DNA from: Mesostigma viride
Taxonomy: Eukaryota; Streptophyta; Mesostigmatophyceae; Mesostigmatales; Mesostigmataceae
Reading direction: 5' to 3'
NCBI GenBank assembly: GCA_009746045.1
Contig: RPFO01000027.1
Coordinates: 570,638 to 634,637, forward strand
Length of the DNA stretch: 64,000 nt
In this document: one piece after another, positions 1 through 52,371 of the stretch
Layout of the letters: each line of letters starts with the position of its first letter
Numbering within the stretch: the first letter of the stretch is position 1
Made by a program: the position numbers and the translations under genes
The notes under the pieces: model-generated
Told to the model about the DNA's origin: nothing
The model's database searches: none
What the model saw: only the letters and a program-made list of their open reading frames with translations

Positions 1-984
1 AAAGTAGTGGCGGCTTATGCATTATGCACCGTAGATTAAATCCGACAGCACTGCAGTTTAGCGTCGCTACAACCACGGAAAGAACACTAGATAATAACGG
101 CATTGCAGCCTGAAATCTATGCTCACGTCATGATAGATAGTGTGAGTGGTCTGATAGGCTCAAAGTCCTAACGCCTCCAAGGCTGCACCACTAACTGCGG
201 ACCTGATCTGATCCGGAGAGAGCTTGTAAGTTACGGCACCTGAAACGGTGCGTACAGGTAATGCTTGCTGTAATCCGAGTCACATCATTCGGATTCTAGT
301 ACACTCAAACATTGTACACATTGTTAAGACACTTAACGACCTGTGGGTGCAATTAATAGGGATGCAAACCCAACAACAAGTCGTGTAAATAAACACCTAG
401 CTGACGGCGTCAATTTCCCCGCATAATAATGCGTGACAGCATACGTGACAAAAGTAGAGAAATATAGCTAGATATTTGACATGCTATCCGGCGGCTCCAC
501 ATGTCCTAAATTGGCCAGCGCAACATTAGTTCGACCTGCGCGCCATAACTCTCAGACGGGCATCCGCGTCCATGACATTTCAACCAACTGTAGTCTTTCA
601 GGCTAGTAATAATGCCCGTGCCACTGCCGGCAATGCAGTGTTTCTCATCAAGTTTAAATTCGGCGGCCAACTGCTATCATGATGACTGGCGCGCACCCGT
701 TACGAACGTTACGTCTCCCGACTACAAACATAGAATCTCACGACTGTCAACATCAAATGCGACGTGTGGCAAAAGCACGTAACTCGGGTAATATTGGCAT
801 GTTTCGGGGTGCAACACCTGCATGGCCTGGCATAATCAGCGTCGTATGTTGAAGTCCTGCACGTCAAGTTGATTGCCAGCTCCCGAGCTCAAGCTCAAGC
901 TCAAGCTCCGGTGCCGTCACCAATTCGGTCATGCAATGCAAGCGGCAGTGGTACCGACTGATCCGTCTCCGTCGTCCAGCGCCA
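1..984. other. non-coding DNA, no gene seen
   Basis: I see no coding region, RNA gene or clear mobile element here. The only local structure is a short run of the hexamer CAAGCT near 890-905. Bases 981-984 (GCCA) are the left target duplication of the DNA transposon that follows. Confidence 0.6.
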
Positions 985-2758
985 TGTTAATCTTCCCAGA
1001 AAAAGTCCTAAATTTAGGACCACTTTGAATTAAAATATATACATGCAAACATTAAAATTTGACCCTGGCATTCGTTCCCATGACAGATAACACACTTTTT
1101 TAGTTGGCATCAAAAACCTGGGGTCAAATAATTACATTTAGTGCATGAATGGGCCCTGCCACCTGCCAGACCTCAAAGCGCGAATTTGGCCAAAATGTGG
1201 GTTTTAGGACCATTAGGACCAATTATTGTCAACGCATGACCATGCTATCCACACGGTCCCTTGAGCATCTTACAAGCGCTAGGGGACCCTACGAGGCCTT
1301 GGGATGGCGGGGCAGCGTATAACAAGGCCATACCCTGCTGTGGCTGCCTCTATATATACGCGTGATTAACGGTGTCACAGATGGTGCAGGTAATGCAATA
1401 TAGGGTTGCATGGTTGCTGAGGTTGCCCGGCTTGAACATGGCCCACCCCTTGCGGTAAACTTTCTCTAAGCATATGCCAAACCTTCTTTGACATCACGGA
1501 CATGCTGGCCACCACCCAGCGATGAAAAAACATTGCATTTGCATTGCAACTAACACATGAATGCAGCCAAATCAAGTTACAAAACAACGTTGTGCTAACA
1601 TGCAACGCTTTGTGAGCGAATTCAGCGTGCATGTAACACGTAAACCATACTGTATATACTGTCTGAGAACACCCTGAACGACTGCAGGCCATAGGACAAT
1701 GGTTTATAACTAACACATGAGTAAAACTGCTCTTACGCATGTGTGTTTTAGCTGCAGCGGACGACGAAGATAGAGACGTAAAAAATTGTATGACGTAAAC
1801 CAACTATGTGTGACAGTTATGTGCACAGAGAGCGTCCCCTCTTTTTAGGCATAGCTGGCTGACTCAAAACACCACGACAGCGTTGCCAGTTACACTCATG
1901 ATCTAGGACAACCCGGCACTTACCTGCTACTTACGTCGCCTCATTCCAGATGGTTGCAAAAAAGTCGCTGAAATCCGCAGCGAGGTCAGCTTTCCGAGAG
2001 CTGAGCGCACCAAAGCTGGCCAACCGGTTCGACAATGATATAAACCACGCTTGTGCTGCGTTCTAGGTCCAAGAAATACCAAAAGTGAAGACCTATAAGG
2101 TGCGCTCCCTGCCCAGCCTGAACGTCCCTAAAACATGGTCGACAATGGAAATCGGGCAAGAATATCACGGCCCAGGCGCTCCCATGTCAAATACTCCGTT
2201 TCTAAACTCCAGACTAAAATAAAAATCGTCCACAAAAATTTCCTGGCTTGATTCGCACCACCATTGCTAATACACTAACATGTTTGTGCCAAAATCGACC
2301 CTCCGCGAGCAGGCGATCTGCGACCCATTTGTGTTGTGCCGCTGTGATACAGCGCTACACATAAAAACTTGCGCAGAAAATATTCACAGCCTTTAAGCAT
2401 AACTAACAACCTTTCGTTTTTGCTACTGGGCGCCCGAAATGATAAACGCACGTGAAAACGCCGGCCACGATTGTCAGATCGCCATATCCACCTCACTTCA
2501 TTCCCGCACCCACTTTTTCGCTCCAAAATCGGTTATATTTTTGGTCGAGGTACCTACTTTCCCGCCATTATACCCGGTACCCGGGTACGGAATCCGGGTA
2601 CCATGTGCCGGTACCACGGGTCGGGTACATCATACCGGGTACGGTGGACATGGGGTACGGACCATATAGTGACCCCCCCTACCCGGTACCTCGGTTATAG
2701 TGACCTCTAGGACAATTTAGGACAAAGTCCTAAATTTAGGACCGTGAGTGGATTAACA
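985..2758. mobile_element. non-autonomous DNA transposon, element A (TGT...ACA ends, 4-bp TSD)
   Basis: The element is 1774 bp. It starts TGTTAATC and ends GATTAACA, giving an imperfect terminal inverted repeat of about 15 bp. It is flanked by the direct 4-bp duplication GCCA (981-984 and 2759-2762). A perfect 16-bp palindrome GTCCTAAATTTAGGAC lies 20 bp inside the left end (1005-1020) and the same palindrome lies 16 bp inside the right end (2727-2742). A degenerate extra copy sits just inside the right one (about 2709-2723). Only short spurious reading frames occur, so it needs a transposase supplied elsewhere. Element B at 5895-7679 has the same layout. The 4-bp duplication with TGT ends recalls Ginger-type transposons, but that superfamily assignment is a guess. 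Confidence 0.85.
2565..2700. repeat. GGGTAC/GTACCC-rich cluster
   Basis: Near the right end of element A, the words GGTACC, CGGGTAC and their complements recur many times in about 130 bp, making many short overlapping inverted repeats. It is a subterminal repeat cluster of the kind often found in DNA transposons. Whether it binds a transposase is unknown. Confidence 0.55.
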
Positions 2759-2762
2759 GCCA

Positions 2763-4572
2763 ACTTCAGCATGCCGACGTCGGTCACCGAGTGTTCCGCT
2801 GTAGGCACTGTATTTCTCATGCAGGCGCCGGCAAAACTCGGCTTGCTGTACGGCAGCAACTCCCCATGGACCTTGCTACAGACAGTACTATAAATCCTGA
2901 CAGTTTCTTCTGCCAGTACCTGACTCTAGTGTACGGACGACATAGCGCACATGCGTGACGCGGTCCCCAGCACGGGGCCAGATTCTGCGTACTGTTTCAG
3001 AATGGCCAGGTGGGAAAGACTTAAGCGTGCTCACTAGAGTGCGCCTCCCCAGAACTCCTACCCCTACGAGATTCGTCTGAAGATTCGGCAGAATCTCACC
3101 TACTGCTTGGGCCCCTTGTCCTTTTCGAGGCGGTTGGCGAGCTCTGCTGCGCCCTGAACCACCAGATGCCACAGCAGATTGCATCCTCCTGCAGGTGGAG
3201 CATTGCTAATGCTGCCCCCTTGAACCCTTGCATGGCATCGGCCATCATGATCGACGTCAGAATTCACATCAGGTACTCGGGGGTCGCGAATTATGTGCAC
3301 AACTGCGTCCTCCCCTTGATCCGGCACGGCAGCCATGCAGCCTAACTCCTCGTCCAGGATGCCAGCAGGGCGAGCATTTGGCGCTCCTCACCTGCCGGTC
3401 CGCTGCCTTGTGCTGCCAGCAATATCTACGTGCAGATGGACTTTGTTGAAAGAAAAATATGATTTGTGTGCTACAGGACATTGATGGAACACGATTGAGA
3501 CGTAATGATAATTGCATTGATTAAGATTAGTCGGCATCAATTTATAGCCAGGACCACATGCCACCGAACTTGTCCACCAACCACATAATGTGGATCCCGT
3601 GCATGGTGGCTACATCATGGCAAGGATAGACCAACGTAGATTGCGTCCCCCTTTTATGCACAAAGGTGCACGATTTGTGAGTGCTTGACAGGCTGGCACT
3701 GAGATTGCGTAGCTTAGTTAACGTAAAAGCTTTTATGTTAGATTGATAGGGCTTTTTTACGCTCTTTCCAACGGCACCAAGAACGCCTCATTTGGTTACG
3801 GGACGTAAAAGTTATGACGTTTCCTAGGTACATAGTGCCGTCGGTGCCGACCTCCAATATGTGTGGGCGCGTGTAGGTACCGGACGTACAAGTGTCACTT
3901 TGATAGTCGCAGGACATTGACAGGACTTGTACAGGACTTGATAGTCGATTGATAGGCCTGCTGCATGCAGAGCCTATGCTGAGTACCGTACGGGTGCAGG
4001 TCCACAGGACTGACCGTACTGCACAATTGATAGATCTGCGCGCCAAGCGCGCCAAAGGCATACGTAGTCAATTGTGTATCAGTTCAGCAGTGACCTGGCT
4101 GCTGAATACTAGGACGCGTACCTAGCTAGGTACATATGTGACTGTGCTCTGCTAGGACGCCAGTTCTTGCCTACGCATCCCACTTGCACGACGACTGTGT
4201 CGTCTGTGCTACGTGCGTGAGGAAAGGTTGACGTGTCAGACCTCTCCCACAGTTTCCATTATTATAATAAAAACCTTTTCCTGCAAGAACCATGGCGTGC
4301 TTCGGTGGTTTACGTGGTTGTGCTCTCTACAACTAGCTTATCTGAAATGCACTGAGAATGCGTTAGTAACGCTAGCCAGATTTCCGTTAACACTCCCTAG
4401 TCGAGTAGTACGACTTCAGAATAGTACGCTAGCTTTTAATAGGTCGTAGGACCCTGAACGTACAAGTCATGACATAATGTGCCGGTTCTCGTAGCTTCGG
4501 CACTAATATCTTAGTCATTCCGTGACCAAATCATGAGCCGTAAAATGACACGTGCTCACTCAGCCCCAAACA
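2763..4572. other. intergenic DNA with only weak reading frames
   Basis: Small minus-strand frames at 2888-3184 and 3100-3336 overlap in different frames. Together they could be remnants of one gene, but I recognise no domain. Short dispersed words such as TTGATAG and ACAGGACTTG recur around 3900-3960. Nothing else can be supported. Confidence 0.4.
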
Positions 4573-4749
4573 CTCTGCCGATATTAATTACGGCCACAAA
4601 ATACGGCAGCCTGGCGGGTGCGATTAATATGTAGGGACGCAACCCTAATACCTCCGTTTACAATAATTGCTCTGCCGATATTAATTACGGCCACAAAATA
4701 CGGGTGCGATTAATAGTGACGCAACCCTATAATACCTCCGTTTACAATA
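4573..4749. repeat. two-copy tandem duplication, about 80-97 bp units
   Basis: Copy 1 (4573-4669) and copy 2 (4670-4749) both begin CTCTGCCGATATTAATTACG and end with CCTCCGTTTACAATA. Copy 2 lacks an internal stretch of about 17 bp. The words GCGATTAATA and GACGCAACCCTA are shared. Confidence 0.8.
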
Positions 4750-4769
4750 GATGGCCTACGTGAAATATA

Positions 4770-5586
4770 TTAACGGCAGGCAGTTGGGCACACAGGGTGA
4801 AATTCACCTCTGACAGACTTCCCTCCCACCCTCTCTGCGTAGTAGTCCAGCATTCCCGGCAGCACTGCGTCCAGCATGTGTTGTTCAGCAGGACTGACAC
4901 TGCATTGTCGCTCAGCGCCACCCCCTTCGTGCGCCCTAGCCTCCCAGCACTCGCCGACAGCGCTGGGCTCGCTGCCGGCGCAGTGTTTGCCTGCTGGATT
5001 AAGCAGTTTGGTCATGGCAGCCAGCAAGTGCCCAACTTCTCCGCCAGCGGGCCGGCCGTTTCCAGGCCTGGATGGCTGCCTTCCCATTGGCGTCGCATAG
5101 CCGGTCTGGGTTCCCATCAACCGAGCCATGTCTCGATCTAAGCCCGCCACAGCCGGGTCTGCTCCACCCGGGACGTCCTTCCCCTCCCCATCCCCGTTTC
5201 CATCTCGCCAGGCTCGCCCCCCGCTCTCGCCAGCCGGAAGTGGAACACCCCCTGTTAGCACCCCATCCAGTGCAAGAGCATCCACCTCGCCATGCAATGG
5301 CCTCCTCCAGCTCTGCGATCACATCGACTAGATTATCCTCCCCATCCCAGTCGATGGCAAAACCGCGCGCTTCGAAAGTCGTCCTGAAATTCTTGGCCTG
5401 TCCATGGTTGAGTATCTTGACCCTGTCTATAGAGAATGGTCTGCCCCCGAGATTGATTGAACTGTCATGGCAGTCACCTTTCAATGGCGCGCATCCTAGT
5501 TTGACAGAGCTAATTAGCGTTTGAAGAAAGTTCCATACATTTCTAGCTTTTGGTCCATCGGAGTTCCTTCCCACAAAGAGAAACAT
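4770..5586 (-). pseudogene. hypothetical protein remnant, frameshifted
   Basis: On the minus strand a frame opens with an ATG at 5586 (MFLFVGRNSDGPKARNVWNF) and keeps protein-like composition for about 100 residues, to roughly 5290. After that the better-looking composition passes to another frame running to a stop at 4770. I read this as one small gene interrupted by a frameshift, or two exons. I recognise no family. The copia element at 5633 begins only about 45 bp upstream of the ATG, so any promoter has been pushed about 9.4 kb away, to the far side of that element. It could also be fortuitous GC-rich open sequence. Confidence 0.25.
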
Positions 5587-5632
5587 GTATTTTACATTTT
5601 TGTGTGCTAGGCTTTATACGTACAGCCTATAC

Positions 5633-7907
5633 AGTTGCAAATAAATGGAATGCGATGTAAATCAGAAAGCATGGAATGAACGTTCTCTTTATTGTTCTCA
5701 TACGTTATTGCTGTTGTTGCATAATTCGTCTTCGTTGCGCATAAGAACCTGTTGCGCTTGGCACCTTCATCAGTCTTACTGAATATCCTACGTGGACATG
5801 CATTCCATGTAGTTCAGTGCATGCCGCGTGTTAGATACTTCTAGAATCCTCTAGGAGGTACCAAGGCAGATGCGCATACATGATAGGCCGATAGTGTCTA
5901 TCTACCCAGAAAAAGGCCTCAATTGAGGCCTTTTTATAAATTGGGTGTTGCATGTAATTACAATGAGACAACAAACTTTATTCCAAATATGAGGATAGGT
6001 CATGCATTATTATGATTGTTTTGGGGTTCCCAGCACTTAACATCAGTCATATATGCCCAATACCTATTTAATTATGATTTAATAAAACAGGGTGTCGCTG
6101 CGGCGGCACCATGAACACAACATGACCATAGGTAGATGCAGAAAAAAGGCGCTAGTACTCAGTTTCCTCTGCCTTTAACGTGTCTTTCGGACCTTACGAG
6201 GTTTCCCCACGACACGGTAAGCATGGCATGACATGGCATGCTCGATCCAAAGGGACCACGCACACACACTTCCGACGGGGCTGTCGCGGAGCACTGCAGG
6301 CAGCATTACCCTGCCATGGGTATTGCACGTAACTACAAGGAATCCACCGCCTCTATAATCAACACGCACAGTGATCATGCATTATAATGATAGTTGTGAC
6401 CTTCCAAGCGCATAAGCGCACTCACCAAGCCTCAATACCGACGCAGTTATAATACTTTCCAACAAGGTGATGCTCTTAAGGTAGCACATGAACAGCATGG
6501 CAAGATATACAAGCATGAATGGACTCTAATAACCAGTTATCTAGACATCTAGCCTATTTGGGGGCCCTTCCAAGGCTGGCCTGTGACATGGGCACCATAG
6601 CAGGAACTACCATGCTTCTTACAGAGGGCACATACGCTTACACAACGGGGCCCAGCCGCAGAGTGCAGCACAACGTAATAACCTGCCTTGAAGTGACACC
6701 GGCCAGGTGCCGGTAAACAACAAGAAACTGGCAGCGTTACAAACCAAACGATGATACAAACCTTCTCCTACCTGGATGCGGTCAACTTTCACATGCATCG
6801 ACTCATGGCATCATGAAGTGCGCACTAACACGAGCAGTGGAGGTCGCTGCGACAGGAACGCTGGTCAAACTCGACTTCTTTAAGCTATCCGGGACCAGCG
6901 CAGGCCGCTCCTCCTGCCGGACAGTAGCTCCATGCATCGTCCTTTGACGTATGAAAACGGCTGCCAACGCCCGGGCCAGCGCTTCTTGCGTACGAGCGCT
7001 CCCATAGCCGGGCGCGCGCGCGTTCTCGCTGTCCGCAACCCAGTTTTTCCTACCTAAAAACACCCCTTCTCTACCTACGGATACACGCCAGAAGGCTCGA
7101 AAATAGCCAGTGCCCCTTTAGTCACGGCTGCCCCAACATCCCCCCCGCCGTTCCGCTAGTCTCCTTCCCAGCATATCGAAGCACCGGCCTGCTGGCAGGC
7201 GCACTATCAACGCCATCTACGCCCCATCTGAATTTCACTAACCTGGCATTCAGCACACAAATAACGACCCCACGAATTTAAAAATCGACTTTTGACCCAT
7301 TTAGCGGTCGCGCTAGCTTCACGGATAATTTATCTGTCCAACGCGCTTCATACTGGTCGAAATGATGCACGAACGTGGCCATACGGTCTATTTTACTCGA
7401 GGCCGCCATGGTCGTGCATGCGTGAAAATTCGTCGTCCGGTTGCACGAAAGTGGCCAAAATAGGTACTTTTCCACCTCACATATCTTTCAGTAACCGTCG
7501 ACCCCTGTCGACCCCAATGGGTCAGGACGCTCAGCACATATACCAGATTCGCGCCACTGGGGCCGGACGACCCATAGGACCGGTCCTTCCCGCCAAAATG
7601 ACCATCCCCAGGTGACCTTGGTGAAAAAGGCCTCAATTGAGCCAAAAGGCCTCAATTGAGGCCTCTGGGTAAATAGACAATAGTCGGCTCAGTCCTCTTG
7701 ATAGGACTACACCGGCCCTTGACCAGCCGGTGACGTGGAGGCCTGGGAGACGTCCACACATTCTACGTGGCGTTATCCCATTGGCGAGTACTAGTGAAGT
7801 ACAGCCATTGGCCCAATACTACAATAAAGTATATTGTAGTAATCTGTACACTGAGATCCTCTATCTCTGAGGACCCATGTGGACCCTAGATGGGTCTCCA
7901 ACCAACT
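5633..7907 (-). repeat. 3' LTR of the copia element, split by element B
   Basis: The LTR is 5633-5894 plus 7680-7907, 486 bp once the 4-bp target duplication of element B is removed. It matches the 5' LTR base for base on reading except for a missing GGTA near 5723. It contains a hairpin with arms TACTACAATA/TATTGTAGTA near 7817-7842, also present in the other LTR. Confidence 0.9.
5895..7679. mobile_element. non-autonomous DNA transposon, element B, nested in the copia LTR
   Basis: The element is 1785 bp. It begins TGTCTATCTACCCAGA and ends with the inverted form TCTGGGTAAATAGACA, with the 4-bp duplication ATAG on each side (5891-5894 and 7680-7683). The undisturbed sister LTR at 14846-14849 has a single ATAG, which proves the boundaries. 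A perfect 16-bp palindrome GGCCTCAATTGAGGCC sits 20 bp inside the left end (5915-5930) and 16 bp inside the right end (7648-7663). A 15-bp imperfect copy lies at 7629-7643. No transposase-like frame is present. It is the same family design as element A, with a different palindrome. Confidence 0.93.
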
Positions 7908-7925
7908 CCAGCCATTCTTTCCCTT
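7908..7925 (-). promoter_or_regulatory. candidate polypurine tract of the copia element
   Basis: Immediately inside the 3' LTR, the minus strand reads AAGGGAAAGAATGGCTGG directly before the LTR start. The position and purine content fit the plus-strand primer site of an LTR retrotransposon. The match is moderate because pyrimidines interrupt it. Confidence 0.5.
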
Positions 7926-8175
7926 GTGAAAGTGATGAGGCTTAGATGTATTCATTGATGTTCGGCCGCACCTGGCCAGTTCACTTTCACATATGTGGGC
8001 AATGGGGACTCACTTGGGTCTTATGGAGTTTGCATCTCATCATTGCATGGTTGGTGTAACCTGCTGTAGGGAAAACCCAAATCTGAAGGAAAACGTCTTC
8101 TCCAGAGAGGACAAAACCTCCAGGGGGATAAAAACCTACAGGAGGAGCATTAGGCTCAGGCTCCCAGATTACTCC

Positions 8176-11055
8176 TCATGACAAGGGTTTCCCAGCCATC
8201 ATGGACCGCAGCAACTGGTACCCATTAAGGGCCAGTCGTGGAAGCTTGGTCATAGCATCAGCAGGATTTGAATGTCCTGGCAGATGTATGGTTATACAGT
8301 GGCTGGACAACTCCTTTGCCACAAGGTAGTCCAAGTCAGTAGTAGTGGCCCTCTCATTCTTGATAAAAGAGACCACGGGCTTATTATCACAATAAACCCT
8401 GACATCAATCACAGGTTGAGGTCTTATCTGACTCAGACACCATAAGAGTAGCTCTCTTATGTATATGGCATCGCGAATGCACATGGCGTATGCCCTGCAC
8501 TCAGCGGTGTCAATGCCAGCAAACCGCCTCCTCTGAAGGTTACTGGACCAGTATACCAACGAGGGCTGTTTGCCTTCATTCCTGATGGTGATCAGGCATC
8601 CGGCTCTGGCACCAATCTTGTTGGCAGATCTAGACTCTTGGCTAGCATCTGTGTAGGCGTCTATGATGATACGCCCATGCCAGTCTACACCGGACAACAC
8701 CAAGTCAGGAGATTCATTGAGGCAGCTCTCCAGGCGCCTCCTTCCTTCTCCTACAACAACAGAGTCTGGCATCCTACTCTGTACTGCCAGGTCAGGGTTA
8801 GTTGTGGCAGCCAGCCAACCCAGTTGACCTTTAACCGTAGGGGCATTCTCCTCAGTTACTCTCTTGGGCAACTGAGTTATTACTTTTTCTTTATACCCCT
8901 TCGCCGATTGCAGCTTAAGATGCCATCCTTTGTCATCCTGGAAAAGGGTACAGCCAATGCCACAGTAAGGTACCTGGCTGTTTTTACTAAACCATGCTCT
9001 GGTACCAATAGGGGACTTGTCATTGAGCCTTTTATAGGTCTCATTCAACCATCCCTTGGGACCAATGCGTTGCATATCATCTCCATGTAAGGTAGCCCAG
9101 GTGGGTTGTCCCTTGGATTGCCCCACAAAGAGACAATAAGCAAGATGAGATTGTTGCATCTGACATCTCTCCTGGATGGCAGGAGCAATGGTTTCATACC
9201 AGATGACTGGACTGCTGACCAGTCCTTCCCAGCCCACTTTAGGCTGCATGTAGGGATGACCTACTTCAGCTATCCAGCATGCTGGGGTCTTAACACAACA
9301 GGGTCTTTGAGCTTGCCAAGTGGCTCTGGCCACCTGAGGATCACCATGCAAAAAGGCCCTGGTGAAGTCATCAATTTCTGCTCCATAATCCAAGCCATAG
9401 TCCAAAGCACCAAGGTACAGACTAAGAATAAGCCTGAGAACAGGATGTGACAGGCCAGGAGTGTACAGCTCCTCCTTATCAAAGTCTGTAGTACCATGGA
9501 ACTGGGTTACGACTGGACGTGCGTTTGGTATGGGAGGCTCACCAAGCTTGCTCTTCATCTTGCATACAAAACGCAACTGAAGCATTTGAGCATTGGGTGG
9601 AGGTTCTGAAATGCCTTCAAAAACATCCAGCGTTTGCCACTCCTGGAGCGCACGCGCCAATGCTACTCGCCAGGCCTCAAGGCCAGCGAAAGTGTGACAA
9701 TCCAGGTCTACATCATCAAAGGACATGGGGCTATGAGCAGCAAATGACCTTTTTGTGAGACCAAGAGAAGTCACACTGAGCTGGGCGGGTTCTACCAGCT
9801 CAGAAGCTGGGGGTATATCCCTTCCCCATTCTGCTCCTTTTACTGAACCGACACAGGCGGTCTTCCAATTTGCCTTCTGGAACATTTCAAGAGGCAAGAG
9901 ACATCTGAATGATTCCAGAGGAATTGGGTCACAATGGGTTTTTAGGAGACTCTTTGTGTTATTGGGGCCATCAACAATGGTAACACCGGGAGTCACCAAG
10001 AATGGCTGGCCAATGAGAGTGGGTCCCTTATAGCCATCAACAACACAAAGTGTCAAAGACTCACCCAAGAATGGGATAGTGATATTCCCAAGAACTTGAT
10101 GATCAGTGTTACCCGCAAAGTCTTGGACAATAGTCCATGGACTGGGTTCAAGGGAATACTTATCCAGCAAAGCATTAAAGGGCGAGGTGACAGAGACCTC
10201 TGCTTTGGTATCCACATCAAAGCCATCAAGGTCCATGCCCTTCTCTGGAAGAGAAGTTATTGTGGCAATCTTTAGTGAGGGCTTGAGCTTCTTTACAATA
10301 TCCCGAAGCTCTTGAGGATTGCCTCTCTTGCCGAGCTGAGTGTTCAACCTGGACAACCCCTCCTCAGCTTGTCTTCCTTGGGCTGGAATCCCATCAGTCT
10401 CCAAGGGCAATGGCTTATTACCAGGGTAATTGGATCCAAGCTTTGGCTGTTCAGACTGAAATATGTTATCCACCTGCCCAGGGGTCTCAAGCCCATGTTC
10501 CAACGGCCGGAGCTTCCGGTGCTGATCAGACACCCTATTATCCAACAAGTCAGCTTCATCCATATCATCCTGTGATATCCCAGTCAATGTCTTAGGCTGA
10601 GCTTGCTGAGTAGTAGGCTCCAGTTGATGGGAGGCCGCCCTTTCTGGTAGTTGGAGTCCAGCCTGTTCACTGGCCAAAGGTGGACAGGAAAGATTGGGAG
10701 ATCCAAGGCCTCTCAGGGGCCATATTTCCAGGGGATTTTCTTGAACGTTCATTGGATCTCTCTTCAATCTATTCCAAGCCAGATGATAAGTGGTCCCATT
10801 CCAGACCACATCAGCAGTTTTCATCTCCAGGTCAACTGAGGTTATGGTCCCTGGACCCTGCCAATAACCACGTTTACCAGGAGCATTTTCTTTGTGGAAG
10901 ATCACCTGGTCTCCCACCTTAAATTTTAATGATTCTCCTCTCTGTTTATCCTTTTCACAGAGATGAGCATACTGTGCCCACCTCTGCTTACTCCATGCCT
11001 GCATTATGTCATCAGGGTAGAGGCCACCTTGCAGCACCCAAACACCTGACAGCAA
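8176..11055 (-). CDS. copia pol fragment: integrase C-terminus, reverse transcriptase, RNase H
   Basis: This open frame of about 959 codons has no clear ATG at its start and probably continues a longer polyprotein by frameshift from the frame at 11012-11368. In order it shows an integrase C-terminal-like segment (GDQVIFHKENAPGKRGYWQG, roughly residues 47-66), a low-complexity linker, a segment around residues 320-370 that faintly resembles a retropepsin end (LIGQPFL), the reverse transcriptase and RNase H. RT motif A reads DFTRAFLHGD and motif C reads LHGDDM in place of the usual YVDDM. RNase H carries DAYTDAS, AECRAYA and YCDNKPV, and ends with LPGHSNPADAMTK, typical of copia elements. It copies element RNA into DNA in cytoplasmic particles. 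No integrase DDE core or gag is visible upstream, so the element cannot move alone. Confidence 0.85.
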   Translation of the reverse strand: MLSGVWVLQGGLYPDDIMQAWSKQRWAQYAHLCEKDKQRGESLKFKVGDQVIFHKENAPGKRGYWQGPGTITSVDLEMKTADVVWNGTTYHLAWNRLKRDPMNVQENPLEIWPLRGLGSPNLSCPPLASEQAGLQLPERAASHQLEPTTQQAQPKTLTGISQDDMDEADLLDNRVSDQHRKLRPLEHGLETPGQVDNIFQSEQPKLGSNYPGNKPLPLETDGIPAQGRQAEEGLSRLNTQLGKRGNPQELRDIVKKLKPSLKIATITSLPEKGMDLDGFDVDTKAEVSVTSPFNALLDKYSLEPSPWTIVQDFAGNTDHQVLGNITIPFLGESLTLCVVDGYKGPTLIGQPFLVTPGVTIVDGPNNTKSLLKTHCDPIPLESFRCLLPLEMFQKANWKTACVGSVKGAEWGRDIPPASELVEPAQLSVTSLGLTKRSFAAHSPMSFDDVDLDCHTFAGLEAWRVALARALQEWQTLDVFEGISEPPPNAQMLQLRFVCKMKSKLGEPPIPNARPVVTQFHGTTDFDKEELYTPGLSHPVLRLILSLYLGALDYGLDYGAEIDDFTRAFLHGDPQVARATWQAQRPCCVKTPACWIAEVGHPYMQPKVGWEGLVSSPVIWYETIAPAIQERCQMQQSHLAYCLFVGQSKGQPTWATLHGDDMQRIGPKGWLNETYKRLNDKSPIGTRAWFSKNSQVPYCGIGCTLFQDDKGWHLKLQSAKGYKEKVITQLPKRVTEENAPTVKGQLGWLAATTNPDLAVQSRMPDSVVVGEGRRRLESCLNESPDLVLSGVDWHGRIIIDAYTDASQESRSANKIGARAGCLITIRNEGKQPSLVYWSSNLQRRRFAGIDTAECRAYAMCIRDAIYIRELLLWCLSQIRPQPVIDVRVYCDNKPVVSFIKNERATTTDLDYLVAKELSSHCITIHLPGHSNPADAMTKLPRLALNGYQLLRSMMAGKPLS

Positions 11056-11700
11056 AAGTTGGTTTAAACATCTCAGGATAATCCCCAGACATTACCAACT
11101 TCTTAAGCTCCTGTATATATCTGTCAACCTTGCCTTGGGCTTGATGATCTTCACGACCCACAATCCTTAGGAAAGGCAGATCAGAGTTAGCCAAAATCCT
11201 AAGATCAATCATTAGGTGATGGCTCTTCAGGACATGGACGGGCATCCACGTTCCTGGCAGAGCAAGAGTCCAAGTTTTTATTATCAATATAACAAGGATT
11301 ATTGCTCTGAGGAGCTTGACTGTTAACAATATCAATGGGTGCTTGGCTGCAACCAGGAGCTGCACCACATGTATTGTTCACAGATATGTTGCTCACTTGG
11401 GCACCTGCATTGACAACACTGTGTGGCATCTGTCTTCAAACAGGAGCAGATCCACATGTGTTGTTTACAGAAAGAGTTCCCTCTGGGGTACTATTTTTAT
11501 TCCAGGCATGGATAGGAATGCCACAAACAGGGGCACTTTTACTGCTGCTCACTGGGGCAGCTTTACGGTCAGTAGGGGTTACTGCTGGAGCCCCTACCAC
11601 CTGGCAGCCCTCATCTGCCATAAAACCACTCTCATCAACGTCCATGAGGACGCTGTAGGGGTTATATAAACAGAGAGGATCATTAATCCGCGTTAATTAA
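11056..11700 (-). pseudogene. degraded upstream part of the copia polyprotein
   Basis: Three short overlapping frames (11012-11368, 11205-11429, 11436-11645) continue the coding trend in shifting frames. Two of them share the peptide VNNTCGxAP, which reflects an internal DNA duplication (TGTATTGTT / TGTGTTGTT contexts near 11371 and 11456). No integrase zinc-binding HHCC or DDE residues can be found. Confidence 0.45.
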
Positions 11701-11907
11701 TGGAACGAGCCTCTTGTGGGGGGCTATGCCTTGGCAGGCCTTCACTGCCAGGGGTTCCATCCCATCATACATATTAAAAATATAATTACTTACAGCAGAG
11801 TGAAATCACTCAAACCAAAGCAAACGCCCAGCTATAAACCTATATACAGAGCCATGTCAAAGCTCTATACTACGATAAGACCAATGGAAACGCCTAACGG
11901 GAGGAAC

Positions 11908-13704
11908 CTAATAGCCCTGCTGCACCGCAAAATCAGCCCGCGTACGGCGGAGCATGATGTCAGCCATGGCCCGAGTCAGCGCCACCGACAAGCGCTGACG
12001 CCAATATGACGTCCAGGTCCGCGCCGACCATGGGGCCCGCTGGCCCTCCAGGTCCAGCCGGTCCTCCCGGAGCCGGCAACACTCCTTGAAGAAGGCGGAG
12101 GTCAGGGGCCCCATGGCCCCAAACTCCTCCAGGACAAAGGGCACCACACGATGGTGCCCGACGTCGCCGTAGGCCAGGAGCTTGGCCCGCTCTGCCCGGT
12201 CCGCCGTGTAACCTGCCGTGAGGGAGGCCCCAGCCACGTGGCTAAGAGCCAAGGGCCGCGCCACCGAAACGTCAATAAGCAGATGCCGGCCACCCCCCTC
12301 AAAGTCCAGCACCACGATGTCAGGCCGGTGGTTGGGGGAATAGAAGGCAGCGCCATCCGCATCCTCGGACCGGATGTTCGCGTGGGGGAAAACCGACCGA
12401 ATCATGGCGAGCACCACCGTCAGGAGGACAGTGTGCAAATACAAATACCAATTCTGATTCTGTTGGCCCCCCATGCAGGCAAGGTAGTGAGTCCCCGTGG
12501 GATCCAGCGGCTGCCCACAGCTACCACAAGGCCGCCCGGCCGGAACAAGAGGCTGCGGAGCAAATAGCTGGTGCCGGAGCGCCACCGAGTAGTGGCTGGG
12601 AGCCAAGGCGAATGGGGGGGCCATGGGAAGAGCACGAAGGTACGCCGAGCCCACACTCCGCAAGGAAAGCGAGAACAGCCACGCACGTCCCTGGGCGTTG
12701 AGGTCCGCGAAAAGAGCAATCCAATCAGCCGTGTGCAGAATACCCGCGTAGGTTTTCTGGTGTTTATCGATGACGCGAGCAGGGAATGCGGCGGGAGATT
12801 GAACGGAGGCGACCGAGGGAGTGCCGCGAGGGAGGTGGCGCTGTACCGCCTGAGCGGCACGGACGGGAGAACAGGCCTGCTGGATCTCAGCATAGGCCTC
12901 CTGGATGGCGGTGACGAAGGGCAAAGGGCTGCTGGGGTCCAGGAGGTCAGGCGCTGCCGTTGCCAAAAGGGGCAGGAGCCGGCAGCTTTCCGCCCACGAC
13001 TGAGCGACGGAGCCCAAAAAGGCTGCTGGGGCCAGCCGGGCGGCACGAGTCAGACCGCAGCCACCCATCCGTGCAGGCAGGGAGGCAATGCGAATAGCAT
13101 GTGGCGGGAGGTCGGGGCCCGGGACCAGCTGCGCCAAGGCCGACTGGATGCGTTCGTCGTGGCCCTCGGCGGCCAGCCGGACCTGAGACGGAAGAGCGCC
13201 CCGGAGCCAGTGAACGACGCGAGGGTGAGCGCAAAACCACAGAAGCAGACCCTTGGTCTGCGAATCATGAAGGCGCGCAATCAAGGGCAGTACCTCAGTG
13301 CGTGCCTCGAGGGCGGCCCGCGGAGCATCGATGACAAACGCGGGGTCGCCAACCGGAACGCCGAGGACATCCAACCCATGGAGGCGCTCGTCCCGGCCCA
13401 AGAGCTGGGGCGGAAAGCCGGAGCAATCACCTTGGGGCGAGTACACCGCGCACTTGGCAAGGGTCAACTGGAGGTTGATGTCGGCCACCGCGGTCTGCAG
13501 TGCCAGCAGAGCCGCGGTGGTGTCCGGCACAGGGCCCAGAAGGTAGATATCATCCAAGTAGGCCTGAATAGCGACCGCCGGGTGTCCCATCATATACATG
13601 CTCACAGGGCATATATGTCCATGTACTAGGAACCTCCCCAGGGGCCCTAGACAATGACGGGATTTTAATACCGCCGTGCTCACCGGCCGGGGCACAGCTG
13701 GCAT
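11908..13704 (-). pseudogene. 5'-truncated LINE: reverse transcriptase C-part with restriction-like endonuclease
   Basis: This is a 598-codon minus-strand frame. The RT catalytic motif C appears as YLDDIYLLGP (about residue 50), followed by GLDVLGVPVG and the segment LPARMGGCGLTRAARLAPAA. A CCHC-type zinc motif CGSCGQPLDPTGTHYLACMG lies near residue 395. Further on, RPDIVVLDFEGGGRHLLIDV resembles the PD-(D/E)XK-type nuclease motif of R2/CRE-like LINEs. RT motifs upstream of C are absent, so the copy is 5'-truncated at about 13590-13700; the first 35 or so codons are probably not part of the LINE. It lies inside the copia element in the same orientation. The long plus-strand frame across 12571-13629 is its shadow. 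Confidence 0.75.
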
Positions 13705-14583
13705 CTCAATCAGGCTTTGCTCCAGCTTGGATATTCCAGCTTCTTACGTATAAGCATCACGTCACTGGGCGTGTACTTGTGTTGTCATGGCTTGTTTCCT
13801 GCAGGGTGGAAAGACAAAACATGGCACACCTGAGGCACATGTCCAGCCTTCCACGGTTTCCAACCAGCTCTTTACAGCACACACGGCCTTTCCAAAAGAA
13901 AAAGAGCCAATTAGTAACATGCAGAAAATATCCGTTACTATAGCAAAAAAGCTCGTTGAAATAAAGACAGCGTCGCTTTATGTTGCCGAGAAACCAGGCA
14001 TGATGCTGAAATCCAATCGTTCATCACTCAACCGCCTTTGCAAAACACAAAGCAACTTCCTTTTATGATGCATGATACTCGTAAGTATCCAAAGCGGCAT
14101 GATATCCAATTCAGCCTGACGGCGAGCATGGTCAACAAAAGGCATGCAGGCCGCCGAAACCAAAGCAATACAAACCGCAATTCAAACCGTTCTTGACGAT
14201 TCGATGGCTTGCGTTGACATTCCAACAGCTTGGATCCAATTCGAGGCTGAAAAAGATTCCGCTCAGAAGGGAAAATCTCTTCAACCATGTGCTATCAACC
14301 AGTTTATACACCCTACGCCTGAACCGGCTGATGTAAACTGGTTACAGCACATCAACTTGATGAAGAATCGAAACCGAATTAGATGCAGGCTGTCCGAGTC
14401 AGATTCCGAGCCTTCTAAACTCCGTCTAGCCATAACGTACGCATGGTCGCTGGCTCGAAGTTTAGTCCTGTCGTCCCTGTGCTCACCGGGGCCAGAGCCA
14501 ACAGTAATTCGGCAAAGCCTATGCTCAATCGGGCTAGGCTTTAACGGAAACTGCCCTCGGTTGTCGAAATGACAATGAATACA
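13705..14583. other. 5' internal region of the copia element, no gene seen
   Basis: This 0.9-kb segment lies between the LINE fragment and the 5' LTR, where gag would be expected. Only short unconvincing frames occur on either strand. The minus-strand sequence next to the LTR (TGTATTCATTGTCATTTC) does not resemble a common tRNA primer site, so I make no primer-binding call. Confidence 0.5.
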
Positions 14584-49260: not shown

Positions 49261-49390
49261 CAGGAAGACGCCAGGAAAAGAAGACGTAAATATGAAGAAG
49301 AGCTCAAACACTAAGCAGGAAGACGCCAGGAAAAGAACACGTAAATATGAAGAAGAGCTCAAACACAAAGCAGGAAGACGCCAGGAAAGT
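49261..49390. repeat. 55-bp tandem repeat, about 2.4 units
   Basis: CAGGAAGACGCCAGGAAAAG starts at 49261, 49316 and 49371; units include GTAAATATGAAGAAGAGCTC. Confidence 0.9.
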
Positions 49391-49484
49391 CTCTTATTCC
49401 CTTCTTTCTAGATCTGGGCCATCCAACCCCCTGTCATCTAGTCAAGATGTCACTTTCCGTTTCTGTTTGCACGAGGGAGGGCAG

Positions 49485-51120
49485 AACAGGGGAGGGGGGA
49501 GCGGGAGAGAGCGCACGGTGGGCAGGTACCAACACGATAGTGAGCCAACCCCTTCTGGCCCAACGGGAGGCTTCCAAAGCTGTAGAAGAAGAAGAAGAAG
49601 AAGAAGAAGAAGAAGAAGAAGAAGAAGAAGAAGAAGAAGAAGAAGAAGAAGAAGAAGAAGAAGAAGAAGAAGAAGAAGAAGAAGAAGAAAAGAAGAGAGG
49701 AGGAGGAGAGGAGGAGGAGGAGGAGGAGGAGGAGGAGGAGGAGGAGGAGGAGGAGGAGGAGGAGGAGGAGAGGAGGAGGAGGAGGAGGAGGAGGAGGAGG
49801 AGGAGGAGGAGGAGGAGGAGGAGGAGGAGGAGGAGGAGGAGGAGGAGGAGGAGGAGGAGAGGAGAGAACAGGGGAGGGGGAAGCAGGAGAGAGCGCACGG
49901 TGGGCAGGTACCAACACGATCGTGAGCCAACCCTTCTGGCCCAACGGGAGGCTTCCAAAGCTGTAGAAGAAGAAGAAGAAGAAGAAGAAGAAGAGAAGAA
50001 GAGAAGAAGAAGAAGAGAAGAAGAAGAAGAAGAAGAAGAAGAAGAAGAAGAAGAAGAAGAAGAAGAAGAAGAGAAGAAGAAGAAGAAGGAGAGAGGAGAG
50101 GAGGAGGAGGAGGAGGAGGAGGAGGAGGAGGAGAGGAGGAGGAGGAGGAGGAGGAGGAGGAGGAGGAGGAGGAGGAGGAGGAGGAGAGGAGGAGGAGGAG
50201 GAGGAGGAGGAGGAGGAGGAGGAGGAGGAGGAGGAGGAGGAGGAGGAGAACAGGGGAGGGGGAAGCGGGAGAGAGCGCACGGTGGGCAGGTACCAACACG
50301 ATCGTGAGCCAACCCCTTCTGGCCCAACGGGAGGCTTCCAAAGCTGTAGAAGAAGAAGAAGAAGAAGAAGAAGAAGAAGAAGAAGAAGAAGAAGAAGAAG
50401 AAGAAGAAGAAGAAGAAGAAGAAGAAGAAGAAGAAGAAGAAGAAGAAGAAGAGGAGGAGGAGGAGGAGGAGGAGGAGGAGGAGGAGGAGGAGGAGGAGGA
50501 GGAGGAGGAGGAGGAGGAGGAGGAGGAGGAGGAGGAGGAGGAGGAGGAGGAGGAGGAGGAGGAGGAGGAGGAGGAGGAGGAGGAGGAGGAGGAGGAGGAG
50601 GAGAGGAGGAGGAGGAGGAGGAGGAGGAGGAGGAGGAGGAGGAGGAGGAGGAGGAGGAGGAGGAGGAGGAGGAGGAGGAGGAGGAGGAGGAGGAGGAGGA
50701 GGAGGAGGAGGAGGAGGAGGAGGAGAACAGGGGAGGGGGAAGCAGGAGAGAGCGCACGGTGGGCAGGTACCAACACGATCGTGAGCCAACCCCTTCTGGC
50801 CCAACGGGAGGCTTCCAAAGCTGTAGAAGAAGAAGAAGAAGAAGAAGAAGAAGAAGAAGAAGAAGAAGAAGAAGAAGAAGAAGAAGAAGAAGAAGAAGAA
50901 GAAGAAGAAGAAGAGAAGAAGAAGAAGAAGAAGAAAGAAGAAGAAGAAGAAGAGGAGAGAGGAGGAGGAGGAGGAGGAGGAGGAGGAGGAGGAGGAGGAG
51001 GAGGAGGAGGAGGAGGAGGAGGAGGAGGAGGAGGAGGAGGAGGAGGAGGAGGAGGAGGAGGAGGAGGAGGAGGAGGAGGAGGAGGAGGAGGAGGAGGAGG
51101 AGGTGTGTGTGTGTGGTGGT

Positions 51121-51152
<32 letters not shown>

Positions 51153-51375
51153 GAGCAGAAGAAGAAGAAGAAGAAGAAGAAGAAGAAGAAGAAGAAGAAG
51201 AAGAAGAAGAGGAGGAGGAGGAGGAGGAGGAGGAGGAGGAGGAGGAGGAGGAGGAGGAGGAGGAGGAGGAGGAGGAGGAGGAGGAGGAGGAGGAGGAGGA
51301 GGAGGAGGAGGAGGAGGAGGAGGAGGAGGAGGAGGAGGAGGAGGAGGAGGAAGAGGAGGAGGAAGAGGAGGGCAA
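49485..51375. repeat. composite macrosatellite: unique core + (GAA)n + (GAG)n, 4 units
   Basis: A core of about 105 bp (AACAGGGGAGGGGG ... GCACGGTGGGCAGGTACCAA ... GGAGGCTTCCAAAGCTGTAG) repeats at about 49485, 49868, 50252 and 50724. Each core is followed by a GAA run that changes into a GAG run. Unit lengths are about 383, 384 and 472 bp, then a longer last unit with a GTGTGT break near 51102 and a second GAA-GAG cycle. One strand is almost entirely purine. Confidence 0.95.
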
Positions 51376-52371
51376 CGCTGAGTGGCGGCTCTGCGCCGTT
51401 AAGTGGAGGCTCGCGTGAAGTTTAAGTGGAAACAAGGTGGGAAGAAGGGGGAAGTAGTTTAGATAGCTTGGGTAGAGTGCGGTGAAAACTCTGTGCATTC
51501 TGTGTATAATCTGTGTAGATTCTGTCTATTTTGTGTAGCTTGGATTGTCTAGCTTGGGCGTGCTGAGTATATTCTTTGTACATTCTTCATCATTGTCTCT
51601 TTGAAACCTGTACATGTATCAGTTGATGAACTAAGTTAGGCGCAGATCATTTTCCTAGTGGCTGCGCTTGAAGACGAATCCCCACATACAATACAGCTTG
51701 GGTAACATGCTGGGTAAACATATACATCAGGACTCGATATACCTCAGTGGATGATATACCTCATATCAAAGTTAGATAGGGAACATGTTCTGGCTGCCGT
51801 TGTTTTGACCCCACACAGAATAGCACACATGTAGGCTGGCCGCACTTGACTACCCCCCCAATTGATTGGATCAGTATAGCATTTGTATAAACCCCACATG
51901 AGTGGATCCGTAATTTATTTGCATTACCCCCACATGACTGGATTAAGAATGCGCTTTCAGTGCCCACACATGTTCAAATTAAAAATACCCTTACCCTCCA
52001 CATAATACAGATTACCCCACACATAATGGGATTGATAAGGATTCGACGCCCGCTTCCGTTGGGAGGTAAAAGGACTAGCACAGACAAGAGATGAGCACGA
52101 GCAGTATTAACTACCTACTGACGAGGCCGTCCATTAAGCCTCTACACCGTGTGGGACAGTATGCGGCAAGCTAGAATGTGGGGCAAGCTAGTAAAGCTAT
52201 TCTTGAATGCTCAAGTGCGGGGCCCAACCATCAATCCAGGCTCCCCACACAGTTTACCCCACGTTCATCATATAGTTAGGCTGACTCGAACTACCAGCAC
52301 AAGTGACAGCAATTCCAGGTTGGACAATGGACTCCGATTTTTTCGGCTGCTTGAGGAAACCCTGCACTTGC
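51376..52371. other. intergenic DNA, no gene seen
   Basis: Short repeats of CTGTGTA/TCTGTGTAGATT around 51490-51530 and of CCCCACATGAxTGGAT around 51890-51990. No coding region supported. Confidence 0.45.

Follow-up and report, generated by a model that had tools for sequence, protein, structure and literature searches.

Elements A and B, which lie in a stretch of 64,000 nucleotides (here called the window), are two families of non-autonomous DNA transposons in the streptophyte alga Mesostigma viride. Their ends combine a tip with a family-specific palindrome, and we put the probability at roughly 60% that the palindrome is read by a dimeric domain of a putative transposase while the tip is held by its catalytic part. 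What is observed is that the palindromes stand at set distances from the tips and are of a single type in each element, that the right end alone has an additional site, and that the target duplications are mostly 4 bp long, with a preference for nTAG. The palindrome probably serves as the docking site for a paired DNA-binding protein and hence may be an address of the family.

Elements A and B in the window

The features of the two elements are as follows.

985-2758, + strand: element A, non-autonomous transposon, 1774 bp (from the sequence and 28 copies examined in its own genome, the window copy included)
981-984 (left) and 2759-2762 (right), no strand: A target duplication GCCA
985-1004, + strand: A left tip, 20 bp, TGTTAATCTTCCCAG followed by AAAAA
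1005-1020, no strand: A left palindrome GTCCTAAATTTAGGAC, exact in 27 of 28 copies
1203-1219, - strand: two more A-type half-sites (TTTAGGAC, ATTAGGAC) within A
2706-2723, - strand: second A site, degenerate, with two directly oriented half-sites and the dyad lost
2727-2742, no strand: A right palindrome GTCCTAAATTTAGGAC, exact in 26 of 28 copies
2743-2758, - strand: A right tip, 16 bp, ending GATTAACA
5895-7679, + strand: element B, non-autonomous transposon, 1785 bp
5891-5894 (left) and 7680-7683 (right), no strand: B target duplication ATAG
5895-5914, + strand: B left tip, 20 bp
5915-5930, no strand: B left palindrome GGCCTCAATTGAGGCC, at the centre of a perfect palindrome of 26 bp (5910-5935) and exact in 19 of 21 copies
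7629-7643, - strand: second B palindrome, GGCTCAATTGAGGCC when read on the - strand, lacking 1 nt through a fixed deletion that makes it the same in all 21 copies
7648-7663, no strand: B right palindrome GGCCTCAATTGAGGCC, within an 18-bp perfect palindrome (7647-7664), exact in 20 of 21 copies
7664-7679, - strand: B right tip, 16 bp, ending ATAGACA

The coordinates and letters that a preliminary description gave for both elements proved correct, as did the degenerate extra palindrome that it placed near the right end, which is present in A and in B as an altered copy at that end only. The outermost A tips are TGTTAATC (left) and GATTAACA (right), giving the TGT...ACA form. The interiors of A and B are not alignable, their best match being 29 bp at the left end, and each element is the main local home of its own half-site (six of the seven window occurrences of GTCCTAAA fall within A, and five of the eight of GGCCTCAA within B). 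The preliminary description also took the symmetric differences between the two palindromes (positions 2, 6, 11 and 15) as evidence; since two perfect palindromes can differ only in mirror-paired positions, these differences are not independent evidence and add nothing beyond both palindromes being perfect.

Positions 1-24000 of the window hold five centres of perfect palindromes 16 bp or longer vs. 0.32 expected (maximum 2 in 100 runs of first-order Markov resampling of those positions); four of the five belong to A and B, and the fifth (4118-4133) lies outside both. A strict scan, run on 264.6 kb made up of the window, 200 kb of neighbouring contig and 638 N, required two identical palindromes near TGT..ACA tips and a matching 4-bp duplication, and it matched only A and B. 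A relaxed scan of the same 264.6 kb for palindrome pairs gave 32 hits, with B accounting for two of the 30 printed, and the other loci inspected from it were inverted repeats without the A/B plan. No tRNA was found in positions 1-12000 of the window.

Ends and copies across the genome

When the end pattern was searched genome-wide, permitting a palindrome offset of 15-22 and leaving four palindrome positions free, 512 ends were recovered vs. 0 in a reversed control, which upholds the earlier view of DNA transposons with a common plan, TGT...ACA ends and fixed palindrome offsets. Offsets, palindromes and pairings were counted in 100 listed ends of the 512. Among these, the palindrome lay 20 bases from the tip in 51 and 16 bases in 49, and palindromes at random distances, which the preliminary description had named as the sign of a chance pattern, were not seen. 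Of these 100 ends, 99 bear a single perfect palindrome of one type or the other (85 A and 14 B), and in the remaining end it has a lesion. All 34 end pairs among them combined one 20-offset and one 16-offset end of the same family; the two palindromes were identical in 33 of the 34 pairs (the exception being one substitution), and mixed A-type/B-type pairs numbered 0/34. The claim that the same palindrome stands at both ends and is kept as a unit is thus borne out in the listed ends, and both palindromes are intact in 25 of 28 A copies, the other three having broken or altered ends; the B palindromes are kept as well, in the numbers of copies given in the feature list. Most ends start with TGTCC or TGTCT, or else with TGTTA as in A1, and one tip, TGTCCATTTACCCAG, is common to both palindromes (with B in 5/100 and with A in 1/100 listed ends).

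The copies of A are 97.97-100% identical within A1 and 99.66-100% within A2, and such near-identical copies say little on constraint. The constraint argument rests on the B groups; these diverge by up to 16% across the element, and their copies are not independent. Between these groups, tip identity is 60.5% vs. 98.9% for the palindrome at the left end, and 68.5% vs. 97.5% at the right end; in two B subgroups the tips differ at both ends in parallel. That the palindromes persist though the B subfamily tips diverge points to a changeable tip joined to a fixed, family-specific palindrome. The palindrome is not the sole group-specific part of the end, as the B subfamily tips vary more.

An exact 4-bp duplication flanks 40 of the 48 fetched copies (21/28 A, 19/20 B). 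Of the seven A copies that depart from this, three have broken or altered ends and the others show 3, 3, 6 and 2 bp, and the one remaining B copy has a 3-bp duplication, the other 19 being perfect. The target preference is nTAG-like; among the 40 exact duplications there was no TTAA (0/40) and no CCGG or CCGT/ACGG (0/40), and duplications of ~15 or ~25 bp were seen in none of the 28 A copies (2-8 bp checked) or 20 B copies (2-30 bp checked).

How the ends may be read

We propose that the tip, 16 or 20 bp long and starting with TGT, would be held by the catalytic part of the putative transposase, and that the 16-bp palindrome directly inside it would be bound by a dimeric DNA-binding domain. 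The binding protein would be a dimer and part of a cut-and-paste DDE transposase acting in trans; its binding domain would differ between the A and B systems, and the catalytic part for TGTCCATYTACCCAG-like tips may be common to A and B or closely related. The ends are asymmetric, the left having a 20-bp tip and a single site and the right a 16-bp tip and two sites, and this may aid left-right end pairing, as with the unequal ends of piggyBac.

We consider it unlikely that the palindrome instead binds a regulator encoded by the element or the host (a VANC-like anti-silencing protein or a host factor), with transposition guided by the tips alone. A VANC-like role would suit the extra half-sites in the interior of A (1203-1219 and, with one mismatch, 1902), and the available text on VANDAL/VANC describes proteins that bind short element-specific motifs co-evolving with them, motifs that, like the A/B palindromes, evolve together within an element; however, the strict 16/20-bp offsets in 100/100 listed ends and the palindrome adjoining both tips argue for end-pairing machinery, and the VANC motifs, unlike those of A and B, are described in that text as tandem arrays in noncoding regions, without mention there of a fixed distance from the tip. 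Still less probable is that the palindrome forms a single-stranded hairpin for a single-strand transposase of the HUH type (Replitron or IS200/IS605-like). Three of the four ends do fold better than shuffles (A right, -7.5 kcal/mol, z -2.7; B right, -18.2 kcal/mol, z -6.8; B left, -12.6 kcal/mol, z -4.3), the strands can fold and may thereby give the palindrome a hairpin role, and the IS200/IS605 transposase is described, in the portion of its literature available, as recognising subterminal secondary structures. The A left end, on the other hand, folds no better than shuffles (z -1.0), and the second right site of A has kept its half-sites while losing the dyad, so a protein that reads half-sites fits better than a hairpin. 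In addition, double-strand cut-and-paste agrees with the inverted tips, the duplications of mostly 4 bp and the matching end palindromes, whereas a review characterises Replitrons by a lack of TIRs and by short direct repeats at the termini.

An origin of A and B as solo LTRs, left by LTR retrotransposons with TG..CA ends and a 4-bp duplication, we regard as extremely unlikely: Gypsy LTRs also have TGT tips and no coding capacity was recognised in A or B, but among 40 scored A copies (of 699 candidates) 0/40 had one of the others as a same-strand partner within 15 kb, despite identities of up to 100%, and inverted tips combined with identical end palindromes in inverted orientation are unusual for LTRs. 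It is about as improbable as the hairpin that the end structure was merely inherited, without function, by copies of a few recent source elements. The 98-100% identity of the scored A copies is what such descent would give, yet B groups up to 16% diverged keep their palindromes while their tips differ, and the plan and offsets are common to A and B despite interiors that do not align.

The preferred reading, a tip plus a palindrome bound by a dimeric transposase domain, has a precedent, although the preliminary description knew of no described family with this feature. In the parts of the published accounts available to us, piggyBac carries identical palindromic 19-bp repeats at both ends at unequal distances from the tips, and at its left end bp 17-33 form a palindrome read by a dimer of C-terminal (cysteine-rich) domains while the first 16 bp are read by other domains; the native enzyme requires unequal ends. 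The palindrome of piggyBat is, in the same body of text, unrelated and read by a domain of a different fold. Against our reading stand the piggyBac structure, which has the dimer on one end only, and the fixed 1-nt deletion in the second B site, which shows that not every dyad has to be perfect. A and B resemble piggyBac in having a subterminal palindrome at both ends, but differ from its TTAA target and CC..GG tips in their TGT..ACA tips (in the intact copies examined) and nTAG-like target; because TTAA targets and CC..GG tips are absent, A and B are not piggyBac members.

Other families share the tips. According to the available text, IS481EU elements, known from parabasalids, resemble A and B in TGT..ACA tips, 4-bp duplications (the only kind in several IS481EU families) and short TIRs (in IS481EU mostly under 50 bp); they also make ~15- and ~25-bp duplications, of which the A/B copies checked showed none, as would also be the case in those IS481EU families that make 4 bp only, and the word palindrome is absent from the paper describing them. 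Ginger1 and Ginger2 likewise have TGT tips, and Ginger1 a 4-bp duplication, in the parts of the literature at hand, which give Ginger1 CCGG or CCGT targets, not seen in A/B, and TGTNR tips, which fit the TGTTA of A1 and of the right end of A2 but not the A2 left end (TGTCC) or B (TGTCT/TGTCC). The Ginger1/Ginger2 description, too, does not contain the word palindrome.

These elements bear on the open question of how transposases distinguish their own ends from the ends of closely related elements. Two families within a single genome have a common plan, common offsets and even a common tip sequence, with no mixed palindromes in the examined pairs, and the palindrome is therefore testable as a specificity element by swapping it alone. 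Our reading would extend a piggyBac-like tip-plus-palindrome architecture to other tips and targets, in a streptophyte alga. More tentatively, and with more doubt than confidence, the ends may form a modular address, with exchangeable tips and a family-defining palindromic plug-in, such that one catalytic machinery could be re-targeted by swapping the dimeric reading domain together with the palindrome.

Candidate transposases and further loci

The preliminary description had called for an autonomous relative with a transposase, and none was found in five long end-to-end spans, each partly covered by three 250-bp probes, which hit pieces of A, other repeats or sequence resembling retroelements. 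Three of these candidates (C1:1259076, C1:13528655 and C558:11047) were rejected since their probes consisted of A sequence plus other sequence, and two (C125 and C220) since they had no A match and a translation that looked retroelement-like by eye. Pfam searches of 10 of the 37 listed A/B frames gave nothing above the cut-off (best E 0.0091), and the A/B elements were not found in the titles or abstract openings of the Mesostigma transposon and transposase literature.

In viral contigs, the two palindromes occur at 13 loci, none of which (0/13) has a TGT or ACA at either of the offsets 16 and 20, and the combined end pattern had 0 matches in these contigs. One of the loci (L006) has TGT at 11, 19 and 21. 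Finally, two A copies lie 6 bp apart inside a repeat of 96.5% identity, and when the flanks of each neighbouring copy are joined and one copy of the duplication is removed, the same uninterrupted site results.

Ends of A and B in the window and genome-wide

The preliminary description of two transposons agrees with the window sequence, which occupies C335:570638-634637 in the 440-Mb assembly:

985-2758, element A
5895-7679, element B

Nothing in their interiors could be aligned (best match 29 bp, at the left end), and no coding capacity was recognised in the 10 of 37 frames scanned. Palindrome half-sites are element-specific and enriched within their own element, which holds 6 of 7 window occurrences for A and 5 of 8 for B. 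The interior of B carries a direct duplication (5942-6040 and 6317-6415, 68% identical), and CGGGTACC-like repeats cluster by eye at 2571-2660, near the right end of A.

The shared plan goes beyond chance. When 264.6 kb were scanned by structure for TGT..ACA tips flanked by a matching 4-bp duplication, with identical palindromes close by, only A and B came back. Genome-wide, the pattern TGTNNATYNNCYCA-N(1-8)-GNCCTNAATTNAGGNC gave 259 + 253 matches, and the same pattern backwards, as a control, gave 0. Among the 100 listed of these 512 ends, the palindrome lay 20 bp from the tip in 51 and 16 bp in 49, with no other value. The palindrome was of type A in 85, of type B in 14 and lesioned in 1, a two-palindrome result that applies to four free positions only; with 12 of the 16 palindrome letters prescribed, the pattern cannot reach unrelated palindromes, and since part of the tip is prescribed too, B2-like ends (see below) are missed. 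The listed ends formed 34 adjacent inward-facing pairs (span 1.7-1.8 kb in 29), every one joining a 20-type to a 16-type end; palindromes were identical within 33 of the 34 pairs, only 3 were B pairs and none mixed A with B. The earlier claim of one palindrome at both ends at fixed offsets thus holds among these ends. Tip TGTCCATTTACCCAG occurs among them with the A palindrome and with the B palindrome.

Conserved palindromes and variable tips

A first look with the A query gave 699 candidates; 40 were scored, at 98-100% identity, and 28 of the 40 were examined. Two subgroups, A1 (left tip TGTTAATC, n=14) and A2 (left tip TGTCCATC, n=13), are 98.3% identical to each other; a single copy with altered ends (L025) falls outside both. 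Both palindromes were intact in 25/28 copies, and exact 4-bp duplications surrounded 21/28; the others had 3, 3, 6 and 2 bp, or none in three with broken or altered ends. Two A copies, L016 and L020, occupy sites 6 bp apart in copies of a single repeat; once the element and a single copy of its duplication are taken out, the flanks match at 96.5% over 805 bp and give one uninterrupted site common to both. Two right-truncated copies, L026 (query position 1755) and L028 (1750), both break within the right palindrome, a pattern with n=2 from a search that favoured near-full copies.

For B, 698 candidates yielded 40 scored copies in three groups, B1 (93-100% identity), B2 (89-90%, outermost 11 bp unaligned) and B3 (84-85%). 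Ends were fetched from 20 copies (4 B1, including 2 with B1b tips; 9 B2; 7 B3), two of which share a common flank and represent one event. A perfect 4-bp duplication flanked 19/20, and 3 bp the other. Together with the window copy, the palindrome was exact in 19/21 left and 20/21 right ends, and the second right site, an altered palindrome copy with a 1-nt deletion, was identical in 21/21. Left/right tips were TGTCTATCTACCCAG/TGTCTATTTACCCAG in B1, TGTCTATTTGTCATG/TGTCTATTTGTCAAG in B1b and TGTCCCAATGTCCAG/TGTCTCAGTGTCCAG in B2; B1b and B2 differ from B1 in parallel at both ends. Parallel change is not a rule, because B3 varies mainly at the left tip (ACCTAG or ACCTGG in place of ACCCAG) and A2 has dissimilar tips, with TGTCC on the left and TGTTA on the right. 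The two B1b copies (C1801:840244 and C1879:22077), 93-95% identical to B over the element, differ from B1 in tip letters within positions 8-14, five at the left and three at the right.

Between B groups, ungapped identity, with copies within a group not independent, was 60.5% (left) and 68.5% (right) for tips vs. 98.9% and 97.5% for palindromes. In what would be a two-part address, the palindrome is preserved within a family and sets families apart, and the tip sets subfamilies apart. The 'symmetric, dyad-preserving changes' originally put forward as evidence add no weight, since two perfect palindromes necessarily differ in this way. Across 40 exact duplications (21 from A, 18 independent fetched B and the window's B) the target leaned towards nTAG: position 2 was T in 26, position 3 was A in 31 and position 4 was G in 24.

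Possible mode of end recognition

The nearest worked-out precedent found for this end plan is piggyBac (PMC7351741, PMC11707139). As described there, catalytic, insertion and DNA-binding domains hold bp 1-16 of the piggyBac left end, and a dimer of C-terminal cysteine-rich domains binds a palindromic repeat at bp 17-33; in A and B the right palindrome spans bp 17-32 and the left spans bp 21-36. The same papers report that the palindrome dimer is present at one end only in the structure, that the native enzyme requires unequal left and right ends, and that piggyBat has an unrelated palindrome read by a differently folded domain. From this precedent and the palindrome positions, we infer that A and B would be moved by cut and paste, by a transposase that reads their ends through a dimeric domain. 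Its catalytic domain may belong to integrase-type families such as IS481EU, whose tips and duplication length resemble those of A and B.

The palindrome might instead act as a hairpin, and three ends do fold better than shuffles (B left, z -4.3; A right, z -2.7; B right, z -6.8), but the A left end does not (z -1.0) and the second right site of A keeps its half-sites while lacking the dyad, which makes a hairpin the weaker reading beside recognition by a dimer.

The preliminary description knew of no described family with this feature, but dimer-bound subterminal palindromes are already known in piggyBac. A and B depart from piggyBac in their tips and target, in having perfect palindromes at set distances from the tip, and in that a single genome holds two families which share a tip sequence but have separate palindromes. 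No description of these elements appeared among the literature matches listed.

The autonomous relative with a transposase that the preliminary description proposed to seek was not found among the 100 listed of 512 ends or in five spans, each exceeding the length of one element and sampled with three 250-bp probes; as 100 of the 512 ends were listed, an autonomous copy may lie among the rest. By these probes, three of the five hold A sequence plus other sequence. The other two, one of them on C220, gave no A match, and their translations look retroelement-like by eye.

Other features in and near the window

8179-11055, minus strand, Copia-like polyprotein ORF (by eye; no Pfam match at E 0.001)
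11908-13743, minus strand, retroelement-like ORF (by eye)
49351-51525, long low-complexity trinucleotide-type tracts, several frames open on both strands
57624 onward, 31-bp satellite (~196 overlapping register copies per repeat finder)

The translation of 8179-11055 is 100% identical to a Mesvir1 protein across the whole searched region (residues 420-955), which assigns the window to the streptophyte alga Mesostigma viride, and that of probes L111 and L112 on contig C220 is clearly related, by eye, to the ORF at 11908-13743. Outside the window, C335:542680-555161 is a ~12.5-kb stretch between 0.86-kb inverted repeats (78%) that carry the palindrome CCAGGAATATTCCTGG, and C335:568737-569210 is an inverted-repeat element of ~470 bp with palindromic arms. 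On viral contigs (L001-L003), the B palindrome sits between A and T runs and resembles an intrinsic terminator, with no relation to the ends of transposons.
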